Shown here: positions 54,528 to 58,549 of the stretch, piece by piece
Position numbering within the stretch: position 1 is the first letter of the stretch
Layout of the letters: every line of letters starts with the position of its first letter
Assembly (NCBI GenBank): GCA_937928595.1
Contig: CALGJV010000004.1
Location: forward strand, 1 to 64,000
Reading direction: 5' to 3'
Origin: an uncultured Phycisphaerae bacterium
GTDB lineage: Bacteria > Planctomycetota > Phycisphaerae > UBA1845 > Fen-1342
Length of the DNA stretch: 64,000 nt
Translations under genes and position numbers: made by a program
The notes under the pieces: generated by a model
Told to the model about the DNA's origin: nothing
Seen by the model: the letters and a program-made list of their open reading frames with translations, nothing else
Database searches by the model: none

Positions 54528-56411
54528 ATGACGCTGACGATCGGACTGCTGCTGCTGGTCGTGTTCCTGGGCTTCGCGGCCGCGATGTTCCTCGAACGGC
54601 TTTCGGCGCTGCTGGCGCTGCCGCTGATGGCGGTGGCGTTCCTGAGCGTGGCACTCGTGGGGGACCTGCTGCAACCCGAGACGGTGACGGAGCCGGCGGC
54701 GCCGGACGCCCGCGCGGCGAGGACGCGGTCGGGGACGCCGGCGGAGCGGACGGGGCCGTCGCGTTTTGCGCAGTGGCAGGCCTTCCGCTGGCAGCGCGCG
54801 GCGTACCTGGCCGAGCTGGCGCGGACGTATCGCGGCTTGGTGCTGGCGTTGCAGGTCGAGCTGCGGGGGAGCGATTCCGTCCCCGCCGTCGCGAGCATGG
54901 ATGCGTTGGGCGGCCTCCGTGGGCGGTTGCTCGGGGTGCTGGACCGGTACGCCGAGCGGGACGAAGCGCTCCGGCGGGCCGCTCTGGAGCGCGCCGCGCT
55001 CGTCGAGGCGCAGTTCGCCCGGCCGCCGCACGTGCCGGGTCCGCGGGCGACGCTGGAGGACGAGCTGAAGGCGATAGCGTTCGCGACGCTTGCGGCCGAC
55101 GTGCGGCAGGTCGTGCAGTCGGCGCCGGATGAGGAGGCCGCGGCGGCGGCGCTGGCGTTGGTGCTGGACCGCGCGCAGGGCGCCCTGCTCGCGATGCAGG
55201 GTCGGTATCCCGACGCCCCGCCGCGGGACGGCTGGTTCACTGCTCGCGGCGTGGCGAGCTACGTCGCGGCGCACTTCCTGCTGCTGTTCCGCGCGGGCAG
55301 CCTCCAGCTCTACGCGACGATCATCGCCACGATCTTCGGCGGCATGTTCGCGATGTACGTGCGGCACCTGAAGATCGCCGAGCGGCTGGTGTACTGGACG
55401 GCTGAGTTCGCGGGGGAGCGCCCGTTCCTGATCGCGCTGAACGTGTTCATTGTCACGGCGGTCGTGTTCACGTCGGTCGGCGGGCTGGGCACGGTGATCA
55501 TGCTGGGGACGATCATCCTGCCGATTCTGCGGTCGGTCGGGCTCGGGCCGATCGCGGCGGCGGGCACGTTCCTGATCGCGATCGCGCTGGGCGGCACGCT
55601 GAACCCCGTCGCGCGGCGGTTGTGGCTGGACTTCTACGGCCTGCGACCCGACGAACTCGACCGCATCCTGTGGATCATGGTCGGGCTCTACGCGGTGTGC
55701 GGCGTCGCATGGATCGCCTGGGGCACGCGTCGGCGGCTGCTCAGCAGCTTCGACGCCGTCGCGGCCGATGGGCCGCGGCCGGCGGCCGAGGTGCCCGCGC
55801 GGCTGCTGCTGGCGCCGCTGGTGCCGGTCGCCCTGGTGTACTTCGCCCGGATCGAGGAGATCAGCGCGTTCCTGGTCACGCTGGCGTACATGTACCTGTG
55901 CGTGTGTCTGCGGCCGGGCGCGACGCGCCAGTTGTCGCGGGCGCTGATCGAGGGGGCCCAGGCGGTCATGCCGCCGGCGCTGCTGATGATCGGCATCGGG
56001 CTGCTGGTGACGGCGCTGGGCACGGCGCCCGTGCAGGCCTACCTGCGGCCGCTGCTGGCGGCGGCGGTGCCCGCCTCGCAGGCGGGCTACATCGCGCTCT
56101 TCGCGCTGGCGGCGCCGCTGGCGCTGTACCGCGGGCCGCTGAACGTGTGGGGCATGGGGCTGGCGGTGTCGGCGACGCTGCTGGCGACGTCGCCGCTGCC
56201 GCCGACGGCGATTCTCGGGGCGATACTGGCCGCGGGCATGCTGCAGGGCGTGTGCGACCCGACCAACACGGCCAACGTCTGGATCGCGGGCTTCCAGGGT
56301 GTCGGCGTGAACCAGATTCTGCGGTATACGCTGCTGCCGGTGTGGCTGGCGGCGGCGGCGGCGGTGGTGATCTTCGGCGTCCTGTTCGTCGGGCCCGGGG
56401 GCGCGCTGTGA
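54528..56411 (+). CDS. Ion-transporter-superfamily permease with a cytoplasmic insertion
   Basis: This 627-residue protein has an N-terminal pair of hydrophobic segments. A long soluble, Ala/Arg-rich helical insert follows (about residues 55-240; TLEDELKAIAFATLAADVRQVVQ). Then come about ten membrane helices with features of the citrate/C4-dicarboxylate/gluconate-type ion transporter superfamily: GGLGTVIMLGTIILPIL, RVxxSV-like loops, and LQGVCDPTNTANVWIAG. The insert probably folds in the cytoplasm. It is translationally coupled (GTGA) to a HyuA-like hydantoinase subunit. It may import the substrate of that enzyme, such as a cyclic amide or acid. Confidence 0.65.
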   Translation: MTLTIGLLLLVVFLGFAAAMFLERLSALLALPLMAVAFLSVALVGDLLQPETVTEPAAPDARAARTRSGTPAERTGPSRFAQWQAFRWQRAAYLAELARTYRGLVLALQVELRGSDSVPAVASMDALGGLRGRLLGVLDRYAERDEALRRAALERAALVEAQFARPPHVPGPRATLEDELKAIAFATLAADVRQVVQSAPDEEAAAAALALVLDRAQGALLAMQGRYPDAPPRDGWFTARGVASYVAAHFLLLFRAGSLQLYATIIATIFGGMFAMYVRHLKIAERLVYWTAEFAGERPFLIALNVFIVTAVVFTSVGGLGTVIMLGTIILPILRSVGLGPIAAAGTFLIAIALGGTLNPVARRLWLDFYGLRPDELDRILWIMVGLYAVCGVAWIAWGTRRRLLSSFDAVAADGPRPAAEVPARLLLAPLVPVALVYFARIEEISAFLVTLAYMYLCVCLRPGATRQLSRALIEGAQAVMPPALLMIGIGLLVTALGTAPVQAYLRPLLAAAVPASQAGYIALFALAAPLALYRGPLNVWGMGLAVSATLLATSPLPPTAILGAILAAGMLQGVCDPTNTANVWIAGFQGVGVNQILRYTLLPVWLAAAAAVVIFGVLFVGPGGAL

Positions 56412-58549
56412 AGGCGCCGCAGCGGGTCCGCATCGGCATCGACGTCGGCGGCACGTTCACCCATGCCGTCGCGATCGACGCGGACACGCTGGCGCTGGTC
56501 GGCAAGGTGAAGGTCCCCACCACGCACCAGGCCGATGAGGGCGTCGCGCGGGGCGTCGTCGAGAGCCTGCTGCGGCTGCTGGACCGGTGCGGACTGGCTC
56601 CCGGGCAGGTCGTGTTCATTGCGCACTCGACGACGCAGGCGACGAACGCCCTGCTGGAGGGGGACGTCGCCCCCGTCGGCATCGTGGGGCTGGGGCGCGG
56701 CGGCGGGGCCTGGCTGGCCCGGCGTCAGACCGCGCTGGCGCCGATCCGTCTGGCGCCCGGCCGCACGCTGGCGATCCACCACCGCTTTCTGCGGTCGGAG
56801 CGGGCGACGCCGGAGGCGATCGACGCCGCGCTCGCGCAGCTTTGCGAGGCGGGGGCCCAGGTCATCGTGGCGGCCGAGGCGTTCAGCGTCGACGACCCCA
56901 CGCTGGAGCGGCTCGTGTGCGAGCGGGCGGCCCTGCGCGGCGTGCCCGCGACCGGCACGCACCAGGTCAGCCGGCTGCACGGGCTGGGCGTCCGCACGCG
57001 CACCGCGGTCATCAACGCCTGCATGCTGCCGCGCATGCTGAGCACGGCGAACCTGACCGAGCAGGCCGTGCGCCAGGCGGGCATCACTGCTCCGCTCATG
57101 ATCATGCGCAGCGACGGCGGCGTCATGGACATCGCCGAGATGCGCCGCCGGCCGATCCTGACGATGCTGTCGGGCCCCGCCGCCGGCGTGGCGGCCGCGC
57201 TGCTGTACGCCCGCGTCTCCGACGGCCTGTTCCTCGAGGTCGGCGGCACGAGCACGGACATCAGCATCATCCGAAACGGGCGCTGTCCGGTGCGCAGCGC
57301 CGAGGTCGGCGGCCAGAAGCTGCACGTCAGCACGCTCGACGTGCGGACCGTCGGCGTCGCCGGGGGCTCGCTCGTCTACCTGCGCGGCGGCCGGGTGGCG
57401 CAGGTGGGGCCGCGCAGCAGCCACATCGCCGGGCTGCCGTACCTGAGCTTCACGGAGCACGGGCCGGCGGACCTGCGGGGCGCGACGCACGCGCTGGAGA
57501 GCGACGAATTCCTGGTCGTCGCCGCCGGCAGCGCGCGGCTGGCCGTCACGACGACGTGCGCGGCCAACCGCCTGGGGCTGGTACCGGCGGGCGATCCGGC
57601 GGAGGGCCGCGCCGACGTCATCGCGGCGGGGCTGGACGCGGCCGCGGCGGTCTGCGGGGAGAAGGACGGGGCGGCGCTGGCGGAGACGATCCTGCGGACG
57701 GCGGCGCCGCGGGTCGGCGCGCTGGTCGCGGGGCTGATCCGCGATTACAAGCTCGACCGGGGCGTGCTGCGGCTGATCGGCGGGGGCGGCGGGGCGGCCG
57801 CGATCGTGCCGTACGTGGCCCGGGTGCTGGGGCTGCCGCACGAGGCGGTGGAGAACGCGGACGTGATCAGCGCAATCGGCGTGGCGCTGGCGCTGGTGCG
57901 CGACACGGTCGAGCGGACGGTGATTACGCCGAGCGAGGAGGACATCCGGCGCATCCGCACCGAAGCGCTGGAGCGCGTGCTCCGCATGGGCGCCGCGCCG
58001 GACACGGTCAACGTGATCGTCGAGGTGGACGGCCGGCGCAACCTGCTGCGCGCGACGGCGGAGGGCGCGACCGAGATCCGCACGCCGGAGCGGCGCGGCC
58101 GGGAGCTGAGCGAGGCCGAGCGGGCGGAGCTGGTCGCGGCGAGTTGCGGGCGCACGGCGGCACCGCCGGAGTGCCGCGCGCGGGCCGCGGGCTTCGAGCT
58201 GTGGACGGCTCCGCGCGTGGTGCGGCGGCTGGGCGGACTGGTGCGCGAGTCGCGGCAGGCGGTGCGCGTCCTGGACCGGGCGGGCACGATCCGCTGGGCG
58301 TCGAACCGCGCGGACTGGCGGGCGAGCACCGCGGCCGCGGCCGAGGCGGACCTGGCGGCGCTGGCGGAGCAGCACACGCGCTACAGCGACGCGGGGGCGA
58401 CGATTCCGCGCTGTTTCGTGCTGCTCGAGAGCCGGATCATCGACCTGTCGGGCCTGGCGGAGATGAAGCAGGTGCGGGAGGTCCTGCGGATCGAGCTCCA
58501 GCGGGCGGGCGGGAGCGCGGAATGCCTGCTGCTGGCGGACCGGGGGTAG
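56408..58549 (+). CDS. HyuA-type hydantoinase / 5-oxoprolinase subunit
   Basis: This 713-residue protein begins RIGIDVGGTFTHAVAID, the ASKHA-type ATP-binding phosphate-1 loop of HyuA/oxoprolinase. AHSTTQATNALLEGD, MRSDGGVMD, LSGPAAGVAAALLYA and VGGTSTDISII follow, with a C-terminal LIGGGGGAAAIVPYV. It would hydrolyse a cyclic amide (hydantoin, oxoproline or a ketone carboxylation substrate) with ATP. The HyuB subunit is absent here, and the last ~130 residues may substitute or be a fused region. The start is a GTG whose GTGA overlaps the transporter stop. Confidence 0.85.
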   Translation: MKAPQRVRIGIDVGGTFTHAVAIDADTLALVGKVKVPTTHQADEGVARGVVESLLRLLDRCGLAPGQVVFIAHSTTQATNALLEGDVAPVGIVGLGRGGGAWLARRQTALAPIRLAPGRTLAIHHRFLRSERATPEAIDAALAQLCEAGAQVIVAAEAFSVDDPTLERLVCERAALRGVPATGTHQVSRLHGLGVRTRTAVINACMLPRMLSTANLTEQAVRQAGITAPLMIMRSDGGVMDIAEMRRRPILTMLSGPAAGVAAALLYARVSDGLFLEVGGTSTDISIIRNGRCPVRSAEVGGQKLHVSTLDVRTVGVAGGSLVYLRGGRVAQVGPRSSHIAGLPYLSFTEHGPADLRGATHALESDEFLVVAAGSARLAVTTTCAANRLGLVPAGDPAEGRADVIAAGLDAAAAVCGEKDGAALAETILRTAAPRVGALVAGLIRDYKLDRGVLRLIGGGGGAAAIVPYVARVLGLPHEAVENADVISAIGVALALVRDTVERTVITPSEEDIRRIRTEALERVLRMGAAPDTVNVIVEVDGRRNLLRATAEGATEIRTPERRGRELSEAERAELVAASCGRTAAPPECRARAAGFELWTAPRVVRRLGGLVRESRQAVRVLDRAGTIRWASNRADWRASTAAAAEADLAALAEQHTRYSDAGATIPRCFVLLESRIIDLSGLAEMKQVREVLRIELQRAGGSAECLLLADRG

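Follow-up and report, generated by a model that had tools for sequence, protein, structure and literature searches.

A carrier gene and a HyuA-type gene at one locus

The window analyzed here is a stretch of 64,000 nucleotides from an uncultured Phycisphaerae bacterium (contig CALGJV010000004.1, positions 1 to 64,000), whose genome of 3.69 Mb is 98% complete. Two genes on its plus strand overlap. The first (54528..56411) encodes a putative carrier of 627 amino acids, hereafter T, a remote relative of the ion-transporter superfamily (DcuC/GntP/CitMHS/NhaC-like). The second (56408..58549), which begins with GTG, encodes a HyuA-type ASKHA protein of 713 amino acids, hereafter H, that belongs to a HyuB-independent clade. 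As the initial annotation of this DNA stated, the stop codon of T and the start codon of H share the nucleotides GTGA, which we read directly from the sequence (56408..56411, plus strand).

The two genes form a conserved pair. Among 61 relatives, T occurs in 6 genomes, with HyuA adjoining it in all six, and the same adjacency is present in two more planctomycete assemblies (L001, L002). Across 392 Planctomycetota genomes, strong matches to T and strong matches to H coincide by genome, and the two genes are adjacent in the loci that were read. Given this co-occurrence, we rejected the possibility that T and H are a local juxtaposition of unrelated genes. In every well-matched case that we found, T and H are adjacent and on the same strand, at distances of -11 to +153 nucleotides. 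The GTGA overlap is incidental and the adjacency is conserved. Since the adjacency persists where the overlap does not, a chance GTGA overlap as the sole link between the two genes was likewise rejected.

The search of other genomes found the pair not only in Phycisphaerae and other Planctomycetota but also in Selenomonas, Streptomyces, and three haloarchaeal genera. A scan of a bacterial and archaeal genome collection returned three loci for T, and plasmid records carry the genes side by side in Selenomonas ruminantium, Streptomyces (with the order of T and H reversed), Haladaptatus, Halocatena, and Halostagnicola. Eight plasmid records contain a HyuA of this clade at E <1e-30, and seven of them also contain T. 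The eighth, from Deinococcus taeanensis (NZ_CP083457.1; L061:4793-8058), has no T; there, an FTR1-family permease overlaps the clade HyuA by GTGA. A further pair lies in bacterial DNA of record OR848123.1. Under the name Listeria phage LM 4-14-1, this record (L091) contains bacterial genes that read, by their translations, as mevalonate-kinase-like, infC- and rplT-like, carrier-HyuA-HExxH, and xanthine-permease-like, and is apparently a phage record contaminated with bacterial DNA. The viral contigs that we searched contained no relative. Beyond Planctomycetota, the pairing is documented by plasmid records and by this one contaminated phage record. A literature search for HyuA without HyuB, for a carrier-HyuA pair, or for its neighbors found no description.

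T of the window aligns with its Phycisphaerae homologues over the full length (50-63% identity). Its shorter orthologues match profiles of the ion-transporter superfamily: a haloarchaeal one reaches the DcuC model of Pfam at 34.8 bits (cut-off 23.1), and 3 of 14 T homologues match CitMHS weakly. DcuC, GntP, CitMHS, and NhaC proteins mostly transport carboxylates together with cations. Unlike these families, T of the window has no significant model in Pfam or NCBIfam, contains an insert of about 190 residues, and has a HyuA-type gene as its partner. A Foldseek search, which bears on the elevator fold with two inverted repeats expected of such carriers, placed the TRAP proteins SiaQM/IseQM best, at E-values of 3e-3 and above, with VcINDY eighth, which is a hint only given the weak model of T that was used (mean predicted local distance difference test score, pLDDT, of 58). 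The model of H is also poor (mean pLDDT 48), and the alignments behind the two models had only 3 and 4 rows.

A HyuA clade without HyuB

H has both HyuA domains, PF05378 (Hydant_A_N, 8.5e-25) and PF01968 (Hydantoinase_A, 1.5e-53), and both phosphate-binding loops, in common with CapAB, 5-oxoprolinase, and HyuAB. In addition, its N-terminal half matches two solved structures (7hk5, 6yra). The phosphate-1 loop is DVGGTFTH (residues 12-19; 56441..56464, plus strand), and DVGGT is present in 19 of 19 clade members. The phosphate-2 loop, retained as [E/D]xGGT across the clade, is EVGGTSTD in H (residues 277-284; 57236..57259, plus strand), with Glu replacing the usual Asp. The phosphate-loop motifs and the adenosine motif GxxPGP are those defined for the caprolactamase CapA, in which the counterpart of this Glu is Asp295 and the D295A variant is much less active (PMC8453981).

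The adenosine motif separates H from the hydrolyzing enzymes. Residues 333-345 of H (57404..57442, plus strand) read VGPRSSHIAGLPY, whereas hydrolyzing HyuA proteins have GPxSAGAxPGPACY, and GxxPGP is thereby lost. The same holds throughout the clade: GxxPGP is found in 0 of 19 members, which have a SHIAGLP-like sequence instead, whereas PGPACY is kept by 8 of 8 classical HyuA proteins. The match of H to CapAB, 5-oxoprolinase, and HyuAB ends at about residue 338. With a profile of the clade, intact members score 858-1144 bits over their whole length, whereas other planctomycete HyuA proteins stay below 190 bits and cease to align beyond about residue 340. One split gene contributes two fragments, which score 396 and 336 bits. 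In a tree of 38 sequences, the carrier-linked HyuA proteins form one clade (support 100/100), separate from the clade of the classical HyuAB type, and a third planctomycete type stands on its own.

Some further HyuA genes deserve mention. In G301 (L055:6552-8529), the carrier-adjacent HyuA is split into two frames by an in-frame TAG and a shift, a state explained by either pseudogenization or faulty assembly. A second planctomycete HyuA type, with DAGGTYTD, GLGGDS, and GIGAP, also lacks PGPACY (L019, L020, L069-L071, L073-L075, L077, L078, L080). In plasmids of Lactiplantibacillus, Pediococcus, and Roseibium, a HyuA-type gene is, as here, annotated beside a partner other than HyuB. Unlike T, that partner (DUF917) is soluble and no carrier, and the HyuA in question is 28-30% identical to the Deinococcus clade member over the first ~350 residues.

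The missing HyuB, which the initial annotation had noted at the locus, is missing from the genome as a whole: the 3.69-Mb, 98%-complete assembly contains nothing that matches the HyuB model (PF02538), and the same search matches 6 of 14 control genomes. HyuB is also absent from most of the pair-bearing planctomycete genomes (8 of 12, including that of the window and the single-contig genome G023). It is therefore not always absent, as 4 of the 12 encode it at another place, but none was found adjoining the pair. For the pair in G005, which lies on a short contig, 2.9 kb are visible downstream of HyuA and contain no HyuB match. HyuB is dispensable to the carrier-HyuA pair, and its absence from 8 of 12 pair genomes rules out a HyuB encoded elsewhere as an obligate partner. 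Three genomes with a pair elsewhere (G443, G301, and G371; L085, L086, and L087) carry HyuB genes with no recognizable HyuA within ~5-7 kb.

Genes inherited with the pair

We examined co-inheritance in 27 genomes of the window's family, 6 with the pair and 21 without, using hypergeometric P values that treat related genomes as independent. Orthologues of a flavin adenine dinucleotide (FAD) oxidoreductase of PF12831 occur in 6 of 6 pair genomes and 0 of 21 others (P 3e-6). A small HExxH protein of the Phycisphaerae type occurs in 5 of 6 against 0 of 21 (P 7e-5); in the sixth pair genome, which has no match, the contig ends inside the carrier. DUF4434 is found in 6 of 6 pair genomes and in two of the 21 others, both of one genus (P 9e-5), and a GH20-like protein has the same distribution, with the same two exceptions. 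The pair thus belongs to a larger co-inherited set, which does not agree with the "compact" system originally envisaged.

The set is contiguous in some genomes and dispersed in others. The HExxH gene lies directly upstream of T, with a 4-nucleotide overlap, in 5 of 5 Phycisphaerae-type loci, and G001 has the intact order DUF4434, GHL10, GH20, HExxH, carrier T, and HyuA. In G023, a distance of 132 kb separates the first four genes (2.34 Mb) from the pair (2.47 Mb). A transposase-like open reading frame (IS4-like by reading) stands upstream of the G023 pair (L038:5125-6531). In the window's genome, the set is scattered over contigs: C33 carries HExxH, C25 both DUF4434 and GHL10, C30 GH20, and C31 the FAD gene. 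Upstream of the pair, the window encodes two GT87 glycosyltransferases and a zinc-ribbon protein, which appear unrelated. The GHL10 proteins of the set have golvesin domains, unlike DigH of E. coli, which we take to be a GHL10 protein as well. DigH is a hydrolase of denuded peptidoglycan glycans (PMC12288456), described there without the name GHL10.

Parts of this set recur beyond the family. In three haloarchaea, HyuA and a downstream gene for a small HExxH protein share an ATGA overlap, and such a gene also follows HyuA in two other Planctomycetota and in OR848123; the profiles of these HExxH groups resemble one another weakly across lineages, and, of the proteins scanned, only that of Halocatena reaches the Zincin_1 cut-off, barely. 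The FAD oxidoreductase neighbors the pair in Selenomonas, Streptomyces, Haloarchaea, and the genomes G443, G371, and G013. A cluster without the pair, on contig C1 of G033 (L120:7286-17372), combines LD-carboxypeptidase (S66), GH20, GHL10, N-acetylglucosamine (GlcNAc) 2-epimerase, DUF4434, and FAD oxidoreductase. It is possibly a locus for scavenging amino sugars or peptidoglycan; its GlcNAc 2-epimerase and LD-carboxypeptidase hint in that direction, as a lead only.

Proposed role of the pair and its alternatives

Altogether, we propose that T imports an anionic product of glycan breakdown and that H, as a HyuB-independent ASKHA enzyme, activates it with ATP, a reading that we favor at not quite even chances. 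The pairing, the HyuA clade, the lack of HyuB, the co-inheritance, and the state of the motifs are demonstrated by the data; what we infer beyond them is the class of substrate, the direction of transport, and the reaction. The hydrolases (GHL10-golvesin, GH20-like, and DUF4434) would release a sugar product, and T, as a secondary carrier of the ion-transporter superfamily, would import an anionic, probably carboxylate-bearing small product, where carboxylate carriage among relatives of T is taken from the Pfam names DcuC and CitMHS. In the cytoplasm, H would then activate the imported product with ATP and without HyuB. The activation would most likely proceed by phosphorylation, because phosphorylation of small molecules is common among ASKHA enzymes and no hydrolytic partner recurs in all pairs. 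In the window's Phycisphaerae family, T and H would handle import and activation within a co-inherited glycan-degradation set that also includes the PF12831 FAD oxidoreductase and the small HExxH protein. Of the import-and-hydrolyze unit proposed at the outset, the carrier and the HyuB-less HyuA hold as a genuine conserved unit. The "hydrolyze" part is unsupported, because the system lacks both HyuB, the hydrolytic metal subunit, and the adenosine motif typical of hydrolyzing HyuA.

Several observations weigh against this proposal. The pair neighborhoods of Selenomonas and Haloarchaea lack the hydrolases of the set, and in G321 and G240 the pair is accompanied by a 2-hydroxyacid dehydrogenase, in G321 also by an aldolase of the dihydrodipicolinate synthase family. 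Since neighbor sets differ between phyla, it is unlikely that all pairs share one substrate, and the connection to glycans may be confined to Planctomycetota. In addition, the Deinococcus clade member is linked to an FTR1 permease rather than to T, and the P values assume that related genomes are independent. Finally, the loss of GxxPGP together with the Asp-to-Glu change could mean that the ATP chemistry of H is altered or lost.

Of the alternatives, the one that survives best, and that we still consider unlikely, is that H remains an ATP-dependent hydrolase of a lactam, imide, or cyclic amide, with the small HExxH protein replacing HyuB as the metal-bearing hydrolytic component. The HExxH protein does recur with the pair, in five Phycisphaerae, three haloarchaea, two other Planctomycetota, and OR848123, it is co-inherited with the pair in the window's family, the window's own genome included, and its profiles show weak similarity across lineages. 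Yet no such protein turned up close to the pair in Selenomonas, Streptomyces, and several other Planctomycetota, nor near the Deinococcus HyuA; in G023 and the window's genome, the gene lies apart from the pair; and HExxH zincins are usually peptidases. The broader claim that T, a HyuB-free HyuA, and the HExxH protein make up a new ATP-dependent import-and-cleave system of bacteria and archaea, with the zincin in place of HyuB, is more doubtful still.

We regard it as improbable that H is instead an ASKHA ATPase acting on a protein, either reactivating an enzyme or gating or energizing the carrier, as ArsA serves ArsB. Consistent with such a function, H always adjoins a membrane carrier, which in one case (FTR1 of Deinococcus, with the GTGA overlap) is a different one; no catalytic partner is common to all cases; and the adenosine motif of H is altered. 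On the other hand, T is a complete secondary carrier, and the FTR1 case stands alone, on a long branch of the tree.

A further alternative concerns the insert of T, a predicted helical bundle (residues 47-240; 54666..55247, plus strand) located between predicted transmembrane segments 2 and 3. The initial annotation described it as a cytoplasmic domain of ~185 residues that might contact the enzyme. Relative to homologues, the insert is real and of about that size (~190 residues). Among 14 aligned T homologues, it measures 148-195 residues in the seven of Phycisphaerae type, whereas only 2-3 residues occupy its position in the seven from Selenomonas, Haloarchaea, and other Planctomycetota. No other part of T is so poorly conserved: the mean pairwise identity of the insert is 24% against 66-72% for the membrane core of Phycisphaerae-type carriers. 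Its helices reach pLDDT values of mostly 60-86 within an otherwise poor model. Averaged hydropathy and counts of lysine plus arginine show these residues to be richer in the loops opposite the insert side in 14 of 14 homologues. By the positive-inside prediction, which is weakened by unequal loop lengths and segment borders set by hand, fewer such residues on its own side place the insert probably outside the cytoplasm, contrary to the location first assigned to it.

Consequently, a cytoplasmic scaffold that docks HyuA and creates a compact import-and-hydrolyze machine is very improbable. In its favor, the insert is helical, suitably large, and present in 7 of 7 Phycisphaerae-type homologues read full length, but it is wholly missing from conserved pairs elsewhere, that is, from all those outside one Phycisphaerae family, which the initial annotation had itself named as an outcome that would refute the idea. 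Its probable location is, moreover, outside the cytoplasm. On this evidence, the insert is a lineage-specific domain outside the core mechanism and does not serve as a conserved docking site for HyuA. The reading of H as part of a classical HyuAB enzyme, with HyuB simply located at another site in the genome, is hardly tenable at all, as the four pair genomes with a distant HyuB fit it, but eight have none, H lies outside the HyuB-type clade and lacks PGPACY, and for the window's genome it is already refuted unless HyuB sits in the missing 2%.

The carrier-tied HyuA without HyuB is a variant of HyuA-type enzymes for which the literature searched gave no description. HyuA proteins are habitually annotated as hydantoinase or oxoprolinase. 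Since this clade works without the hydrolytic subunit and has a dedicated carrier, such annotations are probably wrong for its members. The occurrence of the pairing across Planctomycetota, Bacillota, Actinomycetota, and Haloarchaea points to a basic uncharacterized reaction, and the enzymes co-inherited with it in Phycisphaerae offer a first testable guess at the class of its substrate.

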